The notes under the pieces: model-generated
Database searches by the model: none
The model's input: only the letters and a program-made list of their open reading frames with translations
What the model was told of the DNA's origin: nothing
DNA from: Paracamarosporium sp. OC-R06-R3
Lineage: Eukaryota; Ascomycota; Dothideomycetes; Pleosporales; Didymosphaeriaceae
Length of the DNA stretch: 14,859 bases
Assembly: GCA_019828545.1 (NCBI GenBank)
Contig: JACVRA010000075.1
Coordinates: forward strand, 1-14,859
Direction: 5' to 3'
Program-made: the position numbers and the translations under genes
Shown: positions 1 through 13,900 of the stretch, in pieces
Layout: each line of letters begins with the position of its first letter
Numbering within the stretch: the first letter of the stretch is position 1

Positions 1-300
1 TCTACTACTATAAATAGTAACGTTTAAATTTACTTTTATTCTTAAGAGTCTATAAGCTTTATATTAAGGACTATAGTACTATATATTACTATTTAGGACC
101 TATTTACTACTTTTATAAGTAGATTATTTAAAGGCGTTACGTCTACCCCTAACTATTTAGTTTTTACTAAGGAGAGGAGGTTTAAGGTAGACGTAGAGTC
201 TACTAGGGCTTCTATAAACTCTTATTTAACTTTAGCCCTAAGGGTAAGCATCCCTTTTAGCTACTTATATAGCTAGTTAAACAACGAGTCTATTTTATAG
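1..300 (-). pseudogene. Aspartic protease start of element C pol, partial
   Basis: In the minus frame -1 to gag there is a retropepsin-like pattern. Ala-Leu-Val-Asp-Ser is followed by Thr-x-Thr-Leu-Asn-Leu-Leu-Ser (active-site aspartate at 198-200, motif 186-203), then a Lys-x-Lys-x-Leu-Gly segment and a hydrophobic strand pattern near the window edge. Gypsy-type proteases read Asp-Ser-Gly-Ala; here the Gly position is Thr (ACG), which a G-to-A change of GCG would give. This polyprotein would mature Gag and Pol. It carries several stops and runs off the left edge. The frame was chosen because it has far fewer stops than the gag frame over 1-250. Confidence 0.55.
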
Positions 301-1545
301 ACTTCTAGGACTTAATTAATATAATTTATAACTAAATTAATATAGATAGATAGGGCTACTATAAGTCCTTCTACTACTTATCTTTTTTTAATAGGTATAA
401 CTTTTCTTTATCTACCTTAGCGTCTTATAACCTAGGGGTGGCTACCTTATTAAGAGTAGGGTAGTCTAGGTAGATATATCCTACTTTATTATAATAATAG
501 TACGTTAGTATATTATTAGGCTTAGTAGGTTTTAATAGTGCTACCCTACTCCTTTTTAGACTATTACCCTACTTATTAGCCTTCTTTATTTACTTTTAGA
601 GTCTATTGCTCCCCCTAGTTTCTAACTTCTACTATTAGTTCTTAGGTAGTTGTCTTTAGGCTAGAGAAATAGTCTTTATTATAAATAATTTTTCCGTCCT
701 AAAAATAATTAAAGCTTAAAGCTTAATGTTAAATATTATTATTTTAAGTTCTAGTAGAATCGTCTATAGGCGTTGTTAGATATATAAAGAGAGGTACCTA
801 ATAAACTTTAACTTTTAACGTTTAACATTAATAACCTTTAACTCCTCTTAATAGCTCTAAAGATAGTCTAATAGGTTTAAAGGGGCCTAGTCTAGTCTCT
901 ATTAGCACCGTTTTAATTAATCGTACGCTAATTGGCGTCGTTCTTTGGGGGATTCCAACGCTTAAAGTATCTTTCCCTTTAGTGCCTCCTATGTCTCCTT
1001 CTAGGATGGATCTATTAATAATTGGGACTAGACCTTAGTCTTCTAGGCTATATAAAGGACGTTAAAGATAAACTATAAAATATAATTAACCTTTATTTAT
1101 TTACTAATAAAATACGTCTTTAAGGCTTAAAAGTAAAGTTTATAATTATTCTTCTACTAGTTAAAGTTACAATAATCCTTTTATATATACTTATAAGGCT
1201 ACTTTTATATTAGTGGCTATAGAGAGGGAGCCTTTATAGCTCCTTACTATTATATAGTATCCTATATAGACTTAAAGAGTACATTAGCGTTGCCTAACTT
1301 ATAGCGTTGCTAAATATTATTTATATACTATAGTTCTACAGCGTTTCTTTTATCTCTTAGCCATTTAAGGGCTATATTTAGATTACTAAACGTGCCGTCG
1401 TCTATTATATCTTAACTAATTATAGTCGTCGTTAGCTGGTCCTCTCTTAAGCCGTTAGGCACTAGTGGGCGTTAACTGGCGTAGGTTGTTGCTAGTTAAC
1501 GGAGAAGAGGAGGAGTTATTAAAGACAGAGTTAGTCGTACGTCTT
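290..1545 (-). pseudogene. gag: gag of element C, with CCHC zinc knuckle, RIP-inactivated
   Basis: Gag would form the virus-like particle and bind the element's RNA. One minus-strand frame runs about 415 codons without an indel, and most of its stops read as former Gln or Trp codons. Near the C-terminus, at 461-502, the spacing C-x2-C-x4-H-x4-C is kept although every Cys and His is now Tyr (TGC to TAC, CAT to TAT); a Gly sits before the His position and an Asp before the last Cys, as in retroviral knuckles. Upstream is a helical, charged Gln/Lys/Leu-rich region typical of capsid proteins. No start codon is visible. The protease follows in the -1 frame. Confidence is good for gag, lower for the exact limits. 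Confidence 0.68.
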
Positions 1546-1560
1546 TACTTACTAAATTAG

Positions 1561-1833
1561 TATTATCTACTAAGACTATAATATAAGAGTCTTGGGCGGC
1601 CTAGCCGTTTCTAGATTTAATCCGTTTAAAGTCTATAGAGGTAAGTTAGTCTAGACTGCTTACGTAAAAGTAAGAGCAATTTAAATATTAGGTTATAGGT
1701 AGTAGTAATATAGACTTAACTTAAAGAAATTAATAATAGATTATAGAATAGATAAATTACTAGCTAACTATTTTTATTAACTCTAGTATAATATAATCCC
1801 TTATTACCTAACGTATCCCATTAGGGCCTAACA
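1561..1833 (-). repeat. Probable 5' LTR of element C
   Basis: The minus-strand start TGTTAGGCCC at 1833 follows directly on the interrupted integrase of B. The 3' limit near 1561 (a RIPed CA end, now TA, before the gag frame opens) is a guess. Length would be about 273 bp. The matching 3' LTR and the second copy of the flanking five bases (ggccc at 1834-1838, plus strand) are outside the window, so neither boundary can be confirmed here. Confidence 0.45.
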
Positions 1834-1842
1834 GGCCCTAAT
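1820..1842. repeat. 23-bp palindrome at the C/B junction
   Basis: Perfect inverted repeat: attagggcct (1820-1829), spacer aac, aggccctaat (1833-1842). It spans the point where the LTR of C begins and the integrase of B ends, so half of it is LTR and half is target DNA. Confidence 0.85.
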
Positions 1843-4070
1843 ATCCCGTATAGAATAAAAATAGGTACTCTTTACCTACCTATATAACATTAGTTTTTAT
1901 AGTTTAAAGTATAATTATAGAGATACACTATAGTATAGATAATCTCTAGCTAAAGGTCCTATAGGAGATTAATATTAAGGCGTATAGTATAAGCCTTTTT
2001 CTTAATTAAACCCCCTAAGCGCTTAGCTCCTCTATTTTATACCTATATATTAAGTGCTAAGGGCTTAATTTTAATGCCTTTACTTATACACTAGCGTTTA
2101 ACGTCTGCCTTAATAGTAAAGATTTCATTATCTAACTTAATTACTTTAATAGTTACGTTAAACTATACTTTAGTAAATAGTATAAATTTATTTAGTACTT
2201 TAATAATTAATCTAATAGAGTAATTATCCTTAAAGTAAAAGTCTTATATATAGCTTAAGTATTAATTAGTAATAAATATTTAACTATACTTCTTATTAAA
2301 ACTATATACCTTATAGTTATAAAAGTTAATTATAATACGTTTACTAGGTTTCTTATTATTTAGTCTAGCTTTTTATTAGATCTACTATTTTAACTTTGCT
2401 CTACTATAGGCATTGCATTTAACTATAGGTATACCTTTAATATATACCCCCTTAGCTTACTATATAAAGTGTTTAAGTGTACTAGGTTTTAAATAACCTA
2501 AATGCTTATACTATACCTCTATATTAGCAATAGCTGACCTCTATTTTATATATAAGTTAATTTTATAAATGGTAAAACTAGTACTATTATTTATAGTACG
2601 TAATTAACTTATAGGTTTATATTTAATTACCTACTAGCTATATAGTTCTTAAAGCTCTACAATTACTATATTATTTATATATTTAATTATTATAGGCTTA
2701 ACTTTAGTATTCTACTATAGTCCTTAACGTCTAAGTAGACGGAACAATACTAGGTTATAAAATAAATTAAAGTAAAATACTATATTATTTAGTTTAATTA
2801 TATTATTGCTACGTAAGCTCCTTAGGCGTATATAGACGCTGCCATATCCTTATATTTATACTTATATATTTCTGGCCTATATAAAATTACCTGGCCTAGG
2901 TAGCTATAGTGCAACAAATTAATTAATGTCGTTAAAGATATAGTAAGTTATGCCTAAGTTAAAGATTATTAAGTAGTAGAGTAGATACGTATTTAGGTTA
3001 AATTACTTAATAGTATTAAAACTTATATTAATTACTATTAGACTTATACTATTATTAATAATACTAATTTAACAACCATCTAGTTACTTATTACCTACCT
3101 TAGTAAATAGAGTTGGTATAGGCGTATAGAATTATTTAATATAAGGTATTTATATTTATAATCTACTTTAACTATATATTAATACTTAAAATATACTATT
3201 ATATTTACGTTTAAGCTCTATTAGTTAACTAATAGCTGGCTTTAGTTTCTACTACTTAAGTATTAGTTTTAGATAAACGTAGTAGTAGTCCTTAAGGGTA
3301 TAGCCTTAAGTATATACTAGGTATATTATATTTAGCTTATTAGTTAATAGTTAAAAGGTCTCTTATATAATTACTTTCTTTTATTTTAGGTTAAGTCGTT
3401 TCTTAAATGGCGTATATTTAGTATAAGAGGTATTCCTATTATTACTTTAAGTAGATTTACTACTATTAGTAAGAAAGCTTCTATATAGGTTACTACTAAG
3501 TATATTTATAGTTATAAAGGCTACTTAGTATTTTCCTTTTATATTAAGATAGTTAGTTATTATATATTCTTGGAATTATTTTATTATCTCCTTTTTAGTT
3601 ATACTAGTGGTATATCTTCTACTATTTTAAAAGTTAGTAGCCTATATAGGTACTACTTTATTAATAGCTACTAGAAAGTCCTTTATAACTATATCTAATT
3701 AAGTTACTTTAGTAACTATATAAGTCTCTACTTCTATAGCTGCCTAATTATATTTAGCTAGCTAGGATTCTTATAAGGCAATACTTTTTATTTATTTAAG
3801 AGCTATAAGGTATCTATCTCTTGTACACTCCTTCTTATATTAATTATTAATGCTAATAGTAAGCTTAAGGCTTATAATCTATTTATAAGGTATTTTATTT
3901 AATAGGTAGTAGATATTCTATAGGTAACTTACTACTATTTATTAAATAAATATAATAATATACTAGAGGCTTGTTTACTCCCTTTTATATTTATATTAAT
4001 CGTTCTTATACTATTCTTAGAATAGCTTATAGTACTTTAGGTCCTCCTTAAAGGCCTTCTAACTAGCTAT
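1834..4070 (-). pseudogene. gag-pol: copia gag-pol polyprotein (gag, protease, integrase), RIP-inactivated, 3' end cut off
   Basis: A single minus frame of about 745 codons has no indel. Gag (about 3330-4070) matches fungal copia Gag in its layout of short Lys/Gln-rich helices, ending in a knuckle C-x2-C-x3-H-x4-C at 3285-3323 with Cys/His now Tyr. The protease motif at 2946-2960 reads Asn-Leu-Gly-Ile-Thr where Asp-Ser-Gly-Ala-Thr is expected. A GAG-pre-integrase WHxxLGH-like segment near 2500 is followed by Cys-Asn-Ala-Tyr at 2406-2417 (HHCC remnant). Integrase core: first Asp is Asn (2325-2327), second Asp is kept within Leu-Asp-Asn-Glu (2130-2132), and Glu is Lys (2022-2024), exactly 35 residues later, inside Gln-Asn-Arg-Gly-Ala-Lys-Arg. 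The frame ends at the LTR of C. Gln-to-stop changes dominate the damage. Confidence 0.85.
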
Positions 4071-4447
4071 TAATAGCTTAGACTATTGTATTAGTATGGT
4101 TACATTAGTTACTAACGTATATTTAGTAATAATAAATATCCTGTAGGCTACCAGCTTTATTATTAGTAGAGTAGTTAACTTAGAGTTAACTTTATCCTAT
4201 ATATTATAAGTAATATAGCAGTTCTATAGCTGCTTAAACTATATTATAAAGTTACTATAGTTATAAAGCGTTATTTCTTTACGTTAAGTAGTTATTTAGG
4301 CTACTATAATTACTTAGTATATTAACTAAGGTACTAAGACTCTTAATTATTAGATTTATATAGTAAAATTAATAGATCTTAGTAAACTAGTAAAAAAATA
4401 GATTTATTAATTATATATTAATACTCTATTAGCTATTATTTAGTTTC
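4071..4447 (-). other. Leader between B's LTR and gag
   Basis: About 375 bases with no recognised gene. By position it should be the primer-binding site, 5' untranslated leader and possibly the first Gag codons of B. No primer-binding site could be recognised, which is not surprising if its TGG was RIPed. A 10-bp inverted repeat (4459-4468 with 4479-4488, loop 10) lies just outside, in the presumed LTR. Confidence 0.4.
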
Positions 4448-4559
4448 TGTTAACTATTCCTTACTTAAGGGCTAGGTATTAAGTAAGGGAGGCTAGTATT
4501 GTGCCGACTACTAGCCTAACGCCCTTATATCTAATAACTATTATTAATAGTATAAAACA
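4448..4559 (-). repeat. Tentative 5' LTR of copia element B
   Basis: Minus strand from 4559: the sequence begins TGTTTTATAC and a matching AACA end lies at 4448-4451, giving 112 bp with TGTT...AACA ends. The 5' boundary is supported by the gypsy A frame resuming at 4561; the 3' boundary is a guess. This stretch keeps several TG, CA and CG pairs (gtgccgacta at 4501-4510), unlike its surroundings. Confidence 0.42.
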
Positions 4560-4560
4560 T

Positions 4561-6867
4561 TGCAATACTTAATAGGAGCCCTTATATTTAATAAATACTA
4601 GCCTAAAGGTAAATTCTAACAAGATTAAAGTACTATATAATTAAAAAAAATTAATTATAATTATTAAAGTAAAGTTATTCTTAGGCTTTACTAGATTTTA
4701 TTAATAGTTTATATAGGGCTTTTTATATATTACTAGGCTACTAAATACCTTATAAAGCTCTTAGGTGCCATTTATATAAAATTTAAATTATAATAGAGTA
4801 TTTAATTATATTAAGGATATACTATTAGCTATTTTAATACTTTATTATTTTAATCTAGAGCTACCTACTAGAATAGAGACTAATATATCTAATAAAGTAA
4901 TTATAAATATTCTATTATAAAAATACTTTAATAGTTAAACCTATTTAATTACTTTCTATAGTTAAGTACTATTAGGCTTAAAGTTAAACTAAGAGATTTA
5001 TAATAAGGAGTTATTTACTATTATTATAGTCTTTATTAAATAGTATATTAAACTAACTTTTACTTAGGCTACTATATAAGTATATTTTAATTATTAATTA
5101 CTAGAGTATTTTATAACTATTAAGATGCTTAATATTAGGTAAGTCTATTAGTTAGAGCTACTAGCTCTATTTAACTTTTAAATCTAATATACCCTAGGCA
5201 AGAGTAATACTTAAGTAAATATCTTAAGCTAATAAAAGTAGAACTTAATAAACTTTAAGGTAGTTTAAAATAATACCTAATCTTACGTCTTCTTTAGTCT
5301 ATATAAATTAAATGGCCAAATTAATTCTAATTTAGCTTTAAGATATATAGCTTAATTAATAGCTTAAGTTAAAGTATTTACCTTATTAATTAATTAAGAC
5401 TTTATAAGCCTAGATTTCTTAGAACTAATTAAAGCTCTATTATAGATAAATTAAGCTGGCTTTTAAAAAGAATAGAATAGCCTACTTAATAAGTATTAAA
5501 TTAAAAATAAATTACTACTATATAATAGTTAACTTTATATTTAGCCTAATTTAATACTATATATATACCTTATTTATAAAACTTATAATTAGAAGTTTTC
5601 TACTTATTCTGGCTATACTAAGATTTATTAACTACTAGCCTAATAATACTATTAGAAAGGAATAGAGGCTACCTATAAGTAATATATATATAATTATATT
5701 TTATATAGGTATATTTATCTTTAGTAGACTTAGTTAACTAGCCTACTATATCCCCTACCTATTTTTAATTAGCCTATATAGTACCTCTATATAGATTTTA
5801 AGGAATTTCTAAAGGATAAAGCTAATTATAATTAGATTATAGTTATTATTAATAGACTATTAAAATATATAGTATTTATCTTATACTATAAGAATATAAA
5901 CGCCTATAGTATAGCTAAACTATTTATATAGTAGATTTATTAATTTAGCTATATTTTAAAGACTATTATCTTAAATTATAGCCTATAGTTTATTTTAACG
6001 TTTTAGTTTAAGTTCTATAGGATATTAGGTATTAAAGTTAAGCTATTAACTACCTATTATAAAGAAACTAATAGCTAAATAGAAATTATAAATAAGTATA
6101 TTAATTAATACTTTTAGCCTTTTATATTTTATTATTAAAATAACTAGAGCTTACTACTACTATTAATTAATAAAGTTTAAATAATACTACTTTATTTAAC
6201 TATTAGTATATTTCTATATAAGATCTTATATAGCTTTAAGCTATAGTAGAGCTAAGATTAGACTAGTCTATTATTAACCTAACTAAATAATTAAATAAAC
6301 GTTTAAGAGGCTTAAAAGCTAGTCTAGTATATATATACTACTTAATAGTTAACTAAGAATAATATATAAAGAGCTTAAGACTAAATATAAGTAATAATTA
6401 ATTAATACTATAAATAAATTAACTAAAGTATTAGTAATATAGTATATCTTAATACTTAAAATCTAACTATATTACGGCCTAGTTAAAAGCTATTAGATAA
6501 ATAAGAAGGCCTATTTAAGGTACTTAAATAGATAGGCTATACCTATTAATTATAGCTACTCTAAAGTTTTAAAATATATAATATATTTACTTTAAATTTA
6601 CTTTATAAAGATTTATAAGATTTATTACTAAGATAAGAAGCACTTAAGCCACTAGTAATACCTATTAATGGTATAGAAAAATAGAAAGTAGAAGAAATCT
6701 TAACTAATAAACTTATATATAAAATACTAAAATATTAAGTGAAGTAGCTAAAATATAATTTAAATTTTATATAGTATTTAGCCTTAAACTTTATAGGAGC
6801 TTTTTATAAGCTTAAAAGCTTCTATAATAGATATCTAAATAAGCCAGGTCCTTTAGTAGCTTTAAAT
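4561..6867 (+). pseudogene. pol: gypsy A pol, C-terminal part: RT end, RNase H, integrase, chromodomain
   Basis: One plus frame of about 770 codons without an indel. RT thumb/connection: a Phe-Leu-Gly-Phe-Thr-Arg-Phe-Tyr segment at about 4678-4701. RNase H (about 4831-5240): Glu-Thr-Asn-Ile-Ser for the catalytic Thr-Asp-Ala-Ser (Asn at 4882), then an Asn-Lys-Glu-Leu segment and a terminal Gly-Lys-Ser-Asn. Integrase: zinc-binding Ser-Gly-His(Tyr)-Thr-Lys near 5608, first Asp kept in Ile-Asp-Phe (5794-5796), second Asp replaced by Asn (5974-5976), Glu kept (6082-6084) with exactly 35 residues between. Chromodomain at about 6676-6840: Val-Glu-Glu-Ile-Leu start, a Tyr-Gln-Val-Lys-Trp-like strand and a Lys-Pro-Gly-Pro end. 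Stops read as Gln or Trp. The natural stop is uncertain. Confidence 0.85.
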
Positions 6868-7533
6868 AGATAAATTTATAACTAAAAATATAGTATTAAG
6901 TAGCCAGCTAGCCTACATAGCTCTAATAAGTATAAATAAGGGACTATCTATAGAGTTTAAGTAAAGAGAAGTATAATAAGGCTTAAGCTTAATCCTATTA
7001 ATCTTATTAAGCTCTAAAGTAGATTTAATGTTAAGCTAATATATATATAATTATTAGGGGCTTAAATAATTAGAATCTTAGTAATATAGATTAAGTCTAC
7101 CTATATAGTTAGCTTTTAGCTCCTAGTAGATTTAATAGCTTTTTAGTATCCTTTTATACTAGACCTATAAGGTATTTAATTTATTCTAGGTTATCTTTTA
7201 ATTATATACTCTTATATACCTTTGCCTAGAGCTATACTAAGTTTAGAGCTTTAAGTAACTTTATACTAATATACTACCTTACTTATATTATTAATCTTAT
7301 TATTTAGGATATTATTTAGTACCTTAAACTTTTAACTTTAAATAAAATAGATATTACTAAAACCTTATAAAGGTATTATATTAATAATATTAAAATAAGG
7401 GTATTAGTACTAAACTTTTTTTATAAGGTTAATAGAATTATTATAACTATTTATTACTTATTAACTTAAGGTAGCTCTATATTATCTATATTATAATTAA
7501 TTAATTATTATAACGTTTTAAGCGTTTTATTCT

Positions 7534-7544
7534 TATATAAAAGG
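7534..7544 (+). promoter_or_regulatory. TATA-box-like site in the presumed LTR of A
   Basis: tatataaaagg is a good TATA-box match at a plausible U3/R position near the end of the presumed 3' LTR. In sequence this AT-rich such matches occur by chance, so it is only a candidate. Confidence 0.25.
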
Positions 7545-7601
7545 ATAAGGAGCTAAAGAAGCATCTCTCTATTATATAAAATATAAAAATATAATAAAAC
7601 T

Positions 7602-7629
7602 TTATATATAATATATATATATATATATA
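7602..7629. repeat. TA-rich dinucleotide tract
   Basis: Nearly pure (TA)n for about 28 bp, interrupted once by aa. It lies close to where the LTR of A should end and the hAT sequence begins. RIP of a former (CA)n or (TG)n tract, or plain TA expansion, would both give this. Confidence 0.8.
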
Positions 7630-7639
7630 ATTTATCTAA

Positions 7640-8870
7640 GGAATTATATTAATAAATAGCTTTAAACTAAAATTATACTAAAGATAAGTTTAAATACTTA
7701 TATAAAGAGTAGTAAAGTTTTTAAGGTAGATTTTTATAATTTAAAATAACTTTAATTATTAATTATTAAATAGCATTATCTTAAGCTTCTTATAAAGATA
7801 TTAAAGAACTTTAAGGATACAACTACCTTTTTAAGTTAAAATAAAAGGCCTTAGATTTTATATATTTAGCTTATATATAACCGCCTTTTTAACTTCCTTA
7901 ATAAGATAATAGAAGACTTAAGTAAAGATTAAAATAATAAAAAAGTTATAAATTAGCCTAATATTATAAAATTAATAGCTAAAAGGGGTCAAGTAAAGCT
8001 ATTTAAATATTACGTAAAAATAAAAGATAAATATAAATACCTATTTAACTATATAACTATACTAAATTTAACTTAAAAGCTTATAATATATAAGGTATAT
8101 TATTATAGCTATTTATTATAAAGACTTTTTAACTATATATATAAGATAAGACCTAAGAGGTTTAAAATAAGTATATATACTATAAGGAGTTTCTTTAGTA
8201 TCTAAACTACTATAACTCTTTTAAAGAAAGGAATATTACTCTAATTTTAATAATCTACTTTAAAAGGATATAGACTAGTAAATAGTTTTATAAGCTATAA
8301 TAGTAATTATTAAGTAATCTATCTTAATACTCTATTTTTACTTTACTTAAGGCTAAAGAAGACTACTTAAGGGCTACTTATTAAAAAGGTAAATTATACC
8401 TTAGTACTTTCTATATAAGATAAAGCAAAGACTTTAATTTTCTTTAATAATAAAAAGATAATAAAGAAGTTTATTTATAGCTTACTTAAGTTACTAAAGA
8501 TATTTTAGCAATACTAATTACTAAAGTTAATATAAAATAGGTTTTTAATATAGCTAAAGATATTATTAGTAATTAAAGATATAACCTTTTTATAAGTATA
8601 ATTTAATAGCTTTTAATACTTAAATATACAATTACTTAAAAGACGGATAATACTTATATAACTTAAGAAGTTAAAATTAAGAATAGTAAGAATAGTAGTT
8701 AAGTTAATAACTTATTTAAACTTTTAAGTAATATATTAAAACTTAAGTTATTAGTATCCTTAGAAGAAGAGGAAGAGGAAGAGGAAGAGAAAGAGAAAAA
8801 AAAAAAGACTCTTAAGTATAGTCTTATATAAAGTAGGCCTATATAAAATAGATTTAAAGAAAAAATAGTC
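7640..8870 (+). pseudogene. hAT-family transposase, C-terminal half, RIP-inactivated
   Basis: hAT transposases cut and paste DNA through an RNase H-like fold interrupted by a helical domain and dimerise through a C-terminal segment. At 7681-8062 one frame shows hAT features: Ile-Leu-Lys-x-Phe-Lys-Asp-x-Thr, then a Lys-Tyr-Tyr-x-Lys-x-Lys-Asp segment before a Leu-x-x-Lys-Leu stretch where hAT proteins have LDPRxKL. About 8400-8650, in another frame, carries the dimerisation domain: Lys-Asp-Ile-Leu-Ala-Ile, then Val-Phe-Asn-Ile-Ala-Lys-Asp-Ile-Ile-Ser-Asn (family ERxFSxA...) and a Leu-Ile-Leu-Lys-Tyr helix. An acidic run (9 Glu, then Lys) follows at 8763-8812, as in fungal hAT tails. The frame changes between about 8078 and 8130. 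The BED zinc finger and N-terminal half are absent, probably displaced by A. Confidence 0.72.
8762..8807 (+). repeat. 46-base purine-only tract (GAAGAGG repeats, then A11)
   Basis: Every base from 8762 to 8807 is A or G on the plus strand, mostly gaagag units. In the hAT frame it encodes the acidic Glu/Lys tail. It contains no CpA or TpG on either strand and so is a poor RIP target, which explains its relatively high G content here. Confidence 0.85.
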
Positions 8871-9195
8871 TAACTACTATTATAAAAGTATTAAAGGCCT
8901 AGGTACTACTTAGAGTAGCTACCGCTATAATAAATAACTATAATAAATATATATACTTAATAAAAATTATTTTAGTATCTTAAATAAATCTATTTTAGTC
9001 TAATAGTTATTTTAATAACTCTATTTTAGCTACTTCTCTCTATAAAATAAAAATACTCCTAAAATATATATATCTTTTTATAAAAGGTCTTTTATTTAAG
9101 TTATAAAATAAATAATACTTTTACTATTTATATAATTATTAACTATAGTACTTTATATAACCTAGGTAGGTATATCTACTCTACCTTTATTTAAG

Positions 9196-9318
9196 CTTTA
9201 ACTACCTCTACTTTATCCCTACTTAATACTTTAATTATTTATATTTTATTTCTATTTAATACTTTAACTATCTCTATTTTACCTTTACCTATACTTAAAT
9301 TACCCCTATTCTACCTAC
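9196..9318. repeat. Minisatellite, 33-bp unit, about 3.7 copies
   Basis: Units start at 9196, 9229, 9262 and 9294, each opening CTTTAA(C/T)TA or a close variant and ending around TTAATA/CCTATA; lengths are 33, 33, 32 and a partial. The first three differ mostly by C/T changes, so unit 2 looks like a fully C-to-T version of unit 1. The plus strand is pyrimidine-rich. Confidence 0.8.
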
Positions 9319-9335
9319 TACTTACTAGTAGGTAG
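9311..9335. repeat. Perfect 10-bp inverted repeat
   Basis: ctacctacta (9311-9320), spacer cttac, tagtaggtag (9326-9335), directly after the last minisatellite unit. It could fold as a hairpin; no function can be assigned. Confidence 0.85.
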
Positions 9336-9439
9336 GTCTACCTATTTACTAGCCTATAACTATAAGATTAGTATAAACGTTAATAAAATCTTAATAATAA
9401 ATATATATATAATTAATAATACTACTAAATAAATATAAT

Positions 9440-9835
9440 CCCTAATAGACGACTAGTTAAAAGAAGATAGTATACTAAAAAATTACTTTTTTAAAATATA
9501 AAAAACCTTTAAGGACTAAAAGACCTATAAAAAAAAAATTAAAGTAATATTTAAAAAAGTTAATAAAAGAAAATAAATAGAATAATAAATTTAATACTTA
9601 AAGTAAATTAGCTTAGTAAGAAAATATACTACTATATTTAAATAACTATAGAATAAAATTAAATAGGATAATAATCTACTTTAATTAACCTACTATAATA
9701 AATTAAAAAAAGTAGTTAAGGACGAACTTATATACTATATTAAACTTAAAAATTTAGAGAATTTAATTAAGGTATTAATTAAAATTAATAATTATCTATA
9801 TAAATAAAACTAGGAAAAGTAAAAAGATACTAAAA
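9440..9835 (+). pseudogene. gag: gag of gypsy D, C-terminal capsid part
   Basis: The plus frame at 9601-9830 matches the retrotransposon gag family: a Tyr-x-x-x-Phe-x-x-Leu-x-x-Lys-Ile segment, then Val-Lys-Asp-Glu-Leu (9715-9729), Leu-Glu-Asn-Leu-Ile and Ile-Lys-Ile-Asn-Asn before a Gln/Glu/Lys-rich tail. This is the 'GLKDELxxxxxPxxLxxLIxLAIxIDNRLxER' region of fungal gypsy Gag. Upstream the frame stays readable to about 9440 (Phe-Lys-Asp near 9516), but the expected first 100 or so residues are missing. No zinc knuckle could be placed with confidence downstream. Confidence 0.72.
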
Positions 9836-10265: not shown

Positions 10266-10546
10266 TAAAAATTAAATCTTTAAGTAATATCTATACCTAA
10301 AAATATTCTACTAGAATATAAAAAGTATATAAAACTCTTTAAGAAAAAAAAAAAGAAGGCCTTACTAAAATACTAAAAATAGGATTATAAAATACCTTTA
10401 AAAGAAGATATAAAACTATAACTAAAATAGCTAAAACTAATATTTATAAATTAAAAAAAAGGAGCTATAGAAGTATTTATAAAAGAATTTAAGTAAATAG
10501 TTTATTTAAGAAAGTAAAAGCCTAACTATATTTTTAATTCTTTAAG

Positions 10547-10714
10547 TATAATAAAGTAAATACCTTATCTTTAAAATTAATATTATATAGCTTCTCTTAC
10601 CTATACTAAAAGGTATATATAAGAATACTTAAGCTAAGTATTTTTATATAGTATAATATATAAGGATTAGTATTAAAGGAGTTATATATACTACTATATT
10701 TTAATTTTATTATA
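10547..10714. repeat. Left LTR of the miniature element (168 bp)
   Basis: The gapless partner is 10928-11095. This copy has lost more C and G, especially at its right end, where several C/G positions of the partner are T/A. Confidence 0.85.
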
Positions 10715-10927
10715 CTATTTCCCCCCCTTACCGTTTTAGTTCCTTAAGACGTAAGGCTAAGAATATATATCTACTTTATCTTAATTATAATAGCTTTATA
10801 ATCTAGCCCTATATAGGCTACCCCTGGCGCCTTATAAGCCCTAGCCTTATAAGCCTATAATTTAAGCTAGAGGATTAACGGCTATACTATAAATTAAACT
10901 CTTAACCTTAAAGTAGCTTAAGTATTA
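10715..10927. other. 213-bp interior of the miniature LTR element
   Basis: Noticeably richer in C and G than its surroundings: a run of seven C (10721-10727), ctggcgcc near 10824, and two copies of ccttataagcc about 15 bp apart. It has no coding capacity. No tRNA primer-binding site next to the left LTR could be recognised. Confidence 0.7.
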
Positions 10928-11095
10928 TATAATAAGGTAGATACTTTATTTTTAAAATTAATACTATATAGCTTCCCTTACCTATACTAAAAGATATATA
11001 TAAAAATACTTAAGCTAAATATTTTTATATAGTATAATATATAAAAATTAATATTAAGGGAGCTATATATACTGCTACGTCCTAGCCTTATTATA
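10928..11095. repeat. Right LTR of the miniature element (168 bp)
   Basis: Direct repeat of 10547-10714. It keeps CpG and CC pairs (ctacgtcctagcc near 11075-11087) that are TA or TT in the left copy. Confidence 0.85.
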
Positions 11096-13900
11096 TTAAG
11101 TACTTAAGAAAAATAGTAAATTATGGCTTTATATAAATTATAAATAGTTAAATAATACTATAATAAAAAACTAATACCCCTTACTACTTATTATAAAATT
11201 AATAAATAGACTTAAAGGAGTTAAGTAGTTTATAAAATTTAATATATATAATAAATATTACTATATATAAATAGCTAAAGGTAAAGAATAGAAAACTACA
11301 TTTAAAACTTAATATAAATTATATAAGTATATAGTTATACCCTTTAGGTTAACTAATATACTTATAATATTCTAGGCGTTAATTAATAAGGTACTATATA
11401 AATATTTAAATGTATTTTATATAGCCTATCTTAATAATATACTTATTTATTCTATAGGAACTTTAGAGGAGTACTAGGAATATATAAAAAAAGTACTTAA
11501 AAAAATAAAAAAGTATAAACTACTTTTTTATTTAAAAAAGTATAAATTTTACGTTACTAAAACTAAGTACCTAAGATTTATAATCTTAAGGAAAGGTATA
11601 TTTATAAACTTAAAAAAGGTAGCTACTATATAAAAATAATAGAAACTTAAGTTAGTAAAGAATATTTAATCCTTTTTAAAGTTTATTAACTTTTATTAAA
11701 AGTTTATTAAGGACTACTCTAAGATAATAGTACTATTAATAGAATTTATAAAAAAAGGGGTTTAATAAAACTACTTTCGTAAAAAGCTAAAAAAAGTATT
11801 TTAAAAATTTAAAAAAAGATTTCTAGAAAAACTACTATTATAAATATATAATCTTAAGAGAAGGATATATATAAAAATAAATACTTTAGATTATATACTA
11901 AAAGTAATTCTTTTATAGCTATATAAAGATAAAAAATAGAGACTAGTATTTTACTATTTATATAAGTTTTTAAAAGTAAAACTAAACTATAACGTTTATA
12001 ATAAAGAACTACTAATAATAGTAAATATCTTTAAATAATAAAAAGTATAATATATAGGTATACTATATTAAATTAAGATTTTAATTAATTATTAAAACCT
12101 AATAAGCTTTACTACTACTAAGAAACTAAATTAATAATAGGTATAGTAGATTAAACTTTTTATAAACTTTAACTTTAAAATTTACTATTAACTAAGAACG
12201 TCTAATAAAGTAGTAGATGCCCTAAATAAAAAATTAAATCTAATAAAAAAAGAGCCCTTAAAATAGTATATAATATTAAAGATAATTTAAAAAAGTATAC
12301 TTTAATATAACTAGCTAAAAGAATTATACTATTAAATAAACCTAAATAGAAAGGTAATAAAAATAGAGGTATAAAAAGTAACTACTATATAATATTAAAG
12401 TTTAAAAGTAAATAACTTCTAGGACTATATTTAACTCTCTATAGAATAAAGAGAGGAATATAATTTCTATTAAATAGAATTTAATAGAAAAGACTATTAA
12501 TAAAGATAGATAATTTAAAAGGGATAAAAAAACTTCCTAATTAAAAAGCTTTATAAGTTAAGGAAATAGAAATACTCTAGTATTAAAAAAATAATATATT
12601 AGATTATAAATAAATATACTATACCTAGACTTAAGGGGATAGTTAAAAAAGTATTAAGTAACTATTTAACTTATTATAAAAATAAGCTTAAGAGATATAA
12701 GTCCTATAGATTACTATAACCCTTACTACTACTAATATAACTATAGTTAAGTATAATAATAAATTTTATAATAAAGCTCTTAGTATTACTATAACTAAAG
12801 TTAAATAGAATATATAATATAATATTAAATATTATAAATTAATTAATAAAAGTATCTAAGTTTATACCTATAAAAAAAATTAATAATAGTAAAAGAACTA
12901 GTCTATAAAGTTAATAAAGTACTTCTCTTAAAGTATAACACTTTAAACAAAATTATTATAAATAAAAATAAGCTCTTTATATTTAGATACTAAAATATAT
13001 TTATAAATACTTTAGAAATAATAAGGAAGCTTTTAATAAATTTCTACCCTTAAATAAATAGATAAATAAAACGTATAAATTAGATACTAAAATAGTACCT
13101 ATAATTCTACGTAAATAAGTAGTAAAATAACTAAATTAAACTTCTATTAATAGTATAGTTAATATATAATAGTATTAGATTAAGTATAATAGACTATTTA
13201 CTATATTATATTAACTATAGGTATAAGTTAGTAGCTTATAAGGACTTTAGAGACGTAGAAAGTACTACTATAAGAGTTTAAAAAAAGGCTTAAAAAATAA
13301 AGGAATTATATTAAGTCCTATAAAATAGAATATTCTATAAAGCCCTCTTAGTATTTAAGAATGTAAATAAGTAAAGGATTAAAAAATTAACTTTTAAAAG
13401 GGGGGATAAAGTTTTCCTATTATAAAAAAATCTTAAAATTAAATAGTAAAGTAAAAAACTAGATTACCTATAAATAAAACCCTTTAAAATTCTAAAAAAA
13501 TAAAAGATTAATTATAAATAAGCTTAAATTACTAAAAGGAATTAAAATATACTTAATCTTTTATAAATTACTATTAAAACTAGTATCTTAAAATACTTTA
13601 ATTAAAAATTAATTAAAACTAAAGAATAATAAGTATAAAGTTAAAACTATTAAGGACTTATAAAAGATTAATAGTTAACTTAAGTATTTAATATTATAAA
13701 AAAAATAGTTAAAGTAGTATAATATATTAGAAGTAAAGGAAAACCTTATAAATTATAAAAAATTACTAAAGGACTTCTAGTACTAGTATATAAAGGTATA
13801 CTTTTAAAAAAGTATAATTTTAAACCTAAAGCTAAGGGAATAGTATTAAAATTATAAAAAAAATTAAAAAAATTAAGTAAAGAAGGATTAGCCTATAATT

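Follow-up and report, generated by a model that had tools for sequence, protein, structure and literature searches.

The window analysed here is the whole of contig JACVRA010000075.1 (C311; 14,859 nt) from the Paracamarosporium sp. OC-R06-R3 assembly GCA_019828545.1. At positions 10547–11095 it carries a 549-bp element, whose limits, as proposed in a preliminary description, proved correct to the base. Two long terminal repeats (LTRs) of equal length, 168 bp each (10547–10714 and 10928–11095), align without gaps and are identical at 146 of 168 positions; all 22 differences between them are transitions (12 A/G and 10 C/T). Among the best 20 of 22 direct-repeat families in the window, this pair is the longest (171 nt at 87%), followed by a repeat of 56 nt at 73%. 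The LTRs enclose a 213-bp interior (10715–10927) that is non-coding, as had been supposed: in the related 560-bp copy on contig C4, whose open reading frames were judged by length and strand rather than by a protein-family scan, the longest frame is antisense and encodes 71 aa. The element is flanked by the target-site duplication TTAAG at 10542–10546 and 11096–11100. Its ends, TATAATAA...TTATTATA, had been read as TG...CA altered by repeat-induced point mutation (RIP), and little-mutated copies do start with TGTAATAA and finish with CGTTACA. An Rfam scan of the window gave no matches at gathering scores, and no Pfam family was detected in the three minus frames of positions 1–9200. Elsewhere in the window, three 33-bp direct repeats lie at 9196–9294 in a stretch with a strong excess of C over G (GC skew -0.47 for 9001–9500).

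The orientation of the element follows from a putative polypurine tract on the minus strand at 10715–10727, which reads GGGGGGGAAATAG in the window and GGGGGGGGATAG in three complete 560-bp copies and immediately precedes the LTR at 10547–10714. The element RNA therefore reads from right to left in the window, and a plus-strand reading was rejected. On the minus strand, 10928–11095 is accordingly the 5' LTR and 10547–10714 the 3' LTR. One base inside the 5' LTR lies a candidate primer-binding site (PBS), AATACTTAAGCTA (10914–10926, minus strand), and within that LTR a candidate self-primer, TAGCTTAAGTATT (11005–11017, minus strand), which has a second copy in the other LTR (10624–10636, minus strand). 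The RNA 5' end is predicted at 11017 from its position relative to a TATA-box-like sequence, TATATATTATA, located upstream at 11033–11043, also on the minus strand.

The insertion splits a RIP-damaged Ty3/Gypsy element. On the plus strand at 11106–11579, a reverse transcriptase (RT) domain (RVT_1, 37.9 bits) contains five TAG and three TAA stops and is followed by RT_RNaseH_2, RT_RNaseH and a sub-threshold SH3_Tf2-1 match (16.9 bits, cut-off 30). When the same frame was submitted with X at the stops, RVT_1 was absent from the Pfam listing. The left flank had 31 matches in the genome, from which five loci were fetched; one is the window itself, and the four host copies (L092–L095) all align across the joined flanks with neither a junction gap nor a duplication. 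The empty site reads TTAGG in three of them and TTAGA in one, compared with TTAAG in the window. The proposal that excision rejoins the RT frame of the host thus stands as far as the DNA alignment through the joined flanks is concerned. It is a statement about DNA alignment because the left flank yielded no Pfam domain in any of the three plus frames and RVT_1 was unlisted with X at stops.

Copies in the source genome and decay by RIP

When the window element was used as a query against the source genome (G000; 43.09 Mb, 337 contigs), at least 32 matches were obtained, four of them palindromic second hits within copies, leaving at least 28 places. Interior sequence is present at no fewer than 13 of these (C311, C138, two on C4, C299, C161, C95, C87, C96, C156, C109, C214 and C150, the last with just 12 bases of interior), and at least 15 consist of LTR sequence only. 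Further queries with a complete 560-bp copy (at least 26 matches) and a little-mutated solo LTR (at least 28) added no recognisably new place. The copies fall into two lineages, one of 549 bp with LTRs of 168 bp and one of 560 bp with LTRs of 171 bp. Four copies are complete, namely the window copy (549 bp) and those on C138, C4 and C299 (560 bp), with C299 and C138 being 98% and 96% identical to C4. At one further locus, C93:102811-103269 (L021), two LTR pieces in the same orientation lie 182 bp apart with no recognisable interior between them, possibly a rearranged copy.

An identical pair of 5-bp duplications was found at seven of the eight loci at which outer LTR ends and flanking sequence are present on either side, a count that omits truncated LTRs such as the one on C171. 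The four complete copies carry TTAAG (C311), GAAAC (C138), TCTAG (C4) and AATAA (C299), and three solo LTRs carry CTATA (C161), CGTAC (C106) and GTTAA (C127); the solo LTR on C79 is bordered by AAAAT and ATTAA. The several copies with distinct duplications anticipated in the preliminary description are therefore present.

To describe the decay of the window copy, we compared it with a little-mutated solo LTR on C127 (L025), which belongs to the same lineage without being its ancestor. With both window LTRs pooled and either strand considered, C-to-T changes affected 38 of 38 CpA sites, 34 of 40 CpG sites, 17 of 44 CpC sites and 11 of 40 CpT sites. Because the changes are biased towards CpA and CpG, the reading of the ends as RIP-altered TG...CA holds; RIP here is not confined to CpA, CpG being nearly equal to it and both lying far above CpC and CpT. 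The three 560-bp copies present a different picture. They are hardly mutated and have TG...CA ends (TGTAATAA...CGTTACA), their LTR pairs differ at only 7, 5 and 2 of 171 positions, all by transitions, and their GC content is 0.45–0.47, compared with 0.18–0.27 in their 500-bp flanks. It seems that these copies either landed in DNA that was already AT-rich or were spared by subsequent RIP. Since three complete copies remain hardly mutated amid AT-rich, RIP-like surroundings, small size may help the element to escape this process.

Complementarity between the LTR and the interior

Sites that pair with tRNA 3' ends begin with TGG. In the four complete copies the interior starts with TAATACTTAAGC(C/T)A rather than TGG, and so differs from a tRNA 3'-end site of the kind exemplified by the metazoan GalEa site (PMC5445492). 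Instead, the 13 nucleotides from the second interior base are, in all four complete copies, the Watson–Crick complement of LTR sense positions 79–91 (82–94 in the 560-bp lineage). Dinucleotide shuffles reached 13 Watson–Crick pairs in 0, 1, 0 and 0 of 2000 trials for the four copies, and in 4, 2, 1 and 0 of 2000 when G–U pairs were allowed. Among the 203 interior 16-nt windows of the C299 copy, only the first two reach 13, and 16 of 67,088 16-mers drawn from TRIM-free loci did so; this pool replaced an initial random 16-mer null (35 of 20,000) whose sequences had included LTRs of the family. The complementarity is also retained across the family, the 13-nt duplex being preserved in all eight aligned copies, with Watson–Crick pairing throughout in six and a single G–U pair each in C87 and C214. 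This leader alignment covers 8 of the 13 interior-bearing copies, C214 being partial; C96, C156, C109, C150 and the second copy on C4 were omitted because an arm or the stretch itself is missing from them.

The position of the LTR stretch is likewise consistent with a primer function. In all six little-mutated LTRs that were inspected, TATATA starts 29 nt (560-bp lineage) or 26 nt (549-bp lineage) before it, and on the basis of this spacing the stretch is predicted to be the start of the transcript.

Minimum-energy folds of the predicted leader pair both arms in all four copies folded in this manner (C4, C299, C95 and the window). The folds of C4 (z = -4.75), C95 (z = -3.83) and C299 (z = -2.78; 1 of 100 shuffles as stable) are more stable than their shuffles, and for the window copy (z = 0.41) the fold does not exceed its shuffles in stability. 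Across the eight aligned copies, a 12-pair helix shows pairing in 96 of 96 cells; two of its pairs have changes on both sides and two include G–U. Of the cells of the whole 112-pair structure, 94.4% pair. Both-side changes occur at 22 pairs, compared with 11.9 (sd 2.3) in shuffles and 6–9 in slid controls, and the number of further pair types is not raised over shuffles (54 compared with 54.8; 368 of 500). The covariation is weaker evidence than it looks, because the primer motif includes the palindrome CTTAAG and RIP alters both arms in the same context, so that these numbers overstate independent compensation. When a 480-nt C4 sequence including the whole 5' LTR was folded, the LTR stretch lay in a local hairpin and the PBS paired with the copy in the 3' LTR. 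This alternative pairing, together with the unraised count of pair types, slightly lowers the odds of self-priming.

The LTR–interior–LTR structure, the many copies with 5-bp duplications, RIP decay, the empty site, the lack of a substantial open reading frame and the conserved 13-nt complementarity are established, and the best explanation for them is probably a terminal-repeat retrotransposon in miniature (TRIM) with Tf1-like self-priming that carries cis signals only and depends on proteins supplied in trans. The main rival, priming by a tRNA whose anticodon region would pair with the site, is unlikely and clearly weaker. We surveyed at least 62 tRNA places (63 of 1284 candidates were scored), of which 28 are crowded on C26 and C300 and were taken as mitochondrial, and compared 20 of the other 34 with the site. 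The best candidate seen, a tRNA-Lys(CTT) precursor (L080, C245:189778-189899), has CTTAAGTATT across its anticodon and the start of its intron, which provides 10 nt of complementarity from the first paired base of the site and is shared with the primer stretch of the LTR. Internal-tRNA priming is reported as frequent in fungal Helenus and Copia elements (PMC10886601), the site of the Copia element FunCo1 is described as pairing with an internal part of tRNA-Lys (PMC5445492), and 4 of the 11 Copia RT (RVT_2) hits in the genome are free of stops. Against this, the tRNA match extends over 10 nt compared with 13 for the LTR and depends on the intron, whereas for most fungal Helenus elements the partner inferred is the anticodon loop of a mature tRNA (PMC10886601). 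The FunCo1 site, given as ATTAAGAGTCT (PMC5445492), also differs from the sequence found here, the interior start lacks TGG, and the other 19 of the 20 tRNA genes compared offer at most seven consecutive Watson–Crick pairs.

It is also improbable that the complementarity between LTR and interior has some other role, be it in dimerisation or packaging of the RNA or as a conserved hairpin site of the GalEa kind, and that priming takes place differently. The CTTAAG palindrome, the local hairpin that the LTR stretch can form with the sequence upstream of it and the long, 44-pair hairpin in the interior would suit such a role, and GalEa elements are described as having no classical PBS (PMC5445492). 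The duplex nevertheless begins exactly where a PBS is placed and at the expected RNA start, and the published GalEa motif does not fit the interior start. Finally, we regard it as highly improbable that the element is no family of its own, whether as part of a longer LTR element with coding capacity or as the product of tandem duplication in place. Six LTR fragments do stop at contig ends where a longer element could be hidden (C157, C257, C230, C93, C275 and C83), several LTR pieces are truncated and the C79 LTR lacks a matching duplication, but the same unit occupies four complete sites with four different duplications, the window locus has an empty counterpart, and no such LTR pair at coding-element spacing surrounds a longer interior among the matches listed.

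Proposed replication and possible helpers

Under Tf1-like self-priming, transcription would start 26–29 nt past the LTR TATA box, giving an RNA that begins TGGCTTAAGTATT or TAGCTT[A/G]AGTATT. The first nucleotides of this RNA could then anneal to the PBS next to the 5' LTR, and an RNase H cut would leave a short RNA primer, expected to begin TGGCTTAAG or TAGCTT. From this primer an RT supplied in trans would begin minus-strand synthesis, the polypurine tract would prime the plus strand, and an integrase, again supplied in trans, would insert the product with a 5-bp duplication. We lean, with some reserve, towards the full version of this scheme, in which a non-coding element of about 550 bp would dispense with a tRNA, produce an RNA that itself bears the primer, the primer site, the enclosing fold and the polypurine tract, and exploit the machinery of other LTR retrotransposons in a fungus with RIP. 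Both lineages keep the primer/PBS pair.

Regarding the source of these proteins, 39 of the 41 RVT_1 hits in the genome carry stops, which leaves no evident intact helper of the Tf1 type; the stop-free Copia RT hits make a Copia helper possible. One of the two stop-free RVT_1 hits, on C134, is probably a host gene. It belongs to a protein with an RT domain, open over at least 867 aa (L096, C134:260600-263600, minus strand), that shares 85% identity with proteins of Didymosphaeria variabile and Paraphaeosphaeria sporulosa, both Didymosphaeriaceae (Pleosporales), and has at least 561 relatives across Pezizomycotina at E-values up to 1e-30. It looks like a reverse transcriptase of the fungal rvt type that the host has retained.

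An autonomous partner sharing the ends of the element, envisaged in the preliminary description, was searched for and none was found. The PBS pattern GCTTAAGTATTN{0,3}TR returned 32 rows, compared with 11 in a reversed control, of which 19 lie within copies of the element or their LTRs and 13 elsewhere. With up to two mismatches, the pattern GGTGGCTTAAGTATT gave 60 rows compared with 58 in the reversed control; apart from three exact rows, one in each complete 560-bp copy, it did not separate from chance. Neither of two Gypsy RT loci with less damage (C297 and C107) showed a convincing LTR pair, and both were set aside as partners. A Copia element was rejected as a partner by LTR, its LTR (at least 127 bp) having no similarity to that of the TRIM; located at C3:50636-51283 (L097/L098), it has a Copia-type RT in a 1628-aa open frame and 127-bp LTR pieces that are identical over the compared length. 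Among the 13 rows of the PBS pattern outside the family, one falls in an AT-rich site at C335:129200-129700 (L088), where approximately 26 bases resemble the LTR/PBS junction without the rest of the element. This may be a chance match or a relic, or else a related element may have its PBS there.

Novelty and comparison with known systems

The preliminary classification as a TRIM-like non-autonomous element is supported, with corrections concerning the strand, the priming site, the partner and the novelty among fungi. Fungal elements of this size had been called little described, yet TRIMs have been reported in fungi more often than this implies, with 9 in Cochliobolus heterostrophus (PMC4112212), several at Venturia effector loci (PMC4646964) and 113 Helenus families in rust fungi (PMC10886601). 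A literature search over open-access titles and the beginnings of abstracts retrieved no TRIM with a proposed self-primer. We class the element as a new family of TRIMs that bears a putative signal for Tf1-like self-priming, in a kingdom from which TRIMs as such were already known. If this interpretation is true, a very small retroelement supplies its own primer, and Tf1-type self-priming is separable from the coding element and can be accommodated in about 308 nt of leader. The absence of a recognisable tRNA site from some TRIMs could also be explained in this way, and the element would offer a compact model for the co-evolution of primer and PBS and for the fate of short repeats under RIP.

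TRIMs are reported from plants, ants, cestodes, bivalves and some fungi. The present family resembles them in being shorter than 1000 bp (549 and 560 bp), in its LTRs of 168 and 171 bp (within a range of 100–250 bp), in its non-coding interior and polypurine tract, and in its dispersed copies with target-site duplications. As usually defined, TRIMs have a PBS that is complementary to a tRNA (PMC6934838); here, in contrast, the site is complementary to the LTR of the element itself. An affiliation with Cassandra or Ajax was rejected, as Rfam searches at E-values up to 10 gave four weak matches on the five loci with little-mutated copies, none of them to 5S and none inside the element. The interior also contains GTTCGATTC, which resembles the B-box consensus, and a tRNA origin on this ground was unsupported by ARAGORN and Rfam. 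The species Cochliobolus heterostrophus and the genus Venturia belong, as does the source fungus, to the Dothideomycetes. Their TRIMs (PMC4112212, PMC4646964) thus have both the TRIM label and the class of the host in common with the present family.

Helenus elements (Kojima 2024, PMC10886601) are likewise fungal TRIMs with 5-bp duplications, and the fungal hosts named for them are Pucciniales and several Agaricomycetes. Their LTRs contain tRNA-like sequence and most fungal members have an anticodon-loop PBS, as described in the available text of that paper, and neither feature was seen here. Assignment to Helenus was rejected, with ARAGORN detecting no genes and Rfam no tRNA at E-values up to 10 on the five loci with little-mutated copies. 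Fungal GalEa elements of the Copia type share with the present family the lack of a classical tRNA 3'-end PBS. They are described as having CTGATCAGT or CTAATTAGT after the 5' LTR, palindromic with its last A (PMC5445492). Compared with these two published forms, the interior start here, TAATACTTAAG, does not match; the available text of the same paper reports no LTR sequence complementary to the conserved hairpin motif.

The closest parallel in priming is provided by Tf1/Tf2, Tj1 and other self-primed Ty3/Gypsy elements, which also have a PBS beside the 5' LTR that is complementary to the 5' end of their own RNA, an end that is predicted in the present case. A folded leader, predicted in the present family, is likewise described for self-primed Tf1/Tf2 and Tj1 (PMC7175516, PMC4600332). 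The duplex comprises 13 nt here compared with 11 in Tf1, and Tf1-type elements encode Gag and Pol, whereas the present element consists of about 550 bp without coding sequence. Having neither Gag-Pol nor a substantial open reading frame, it may therefore work like Tf1 and the sushi Gypsy elements without being a member of that group.
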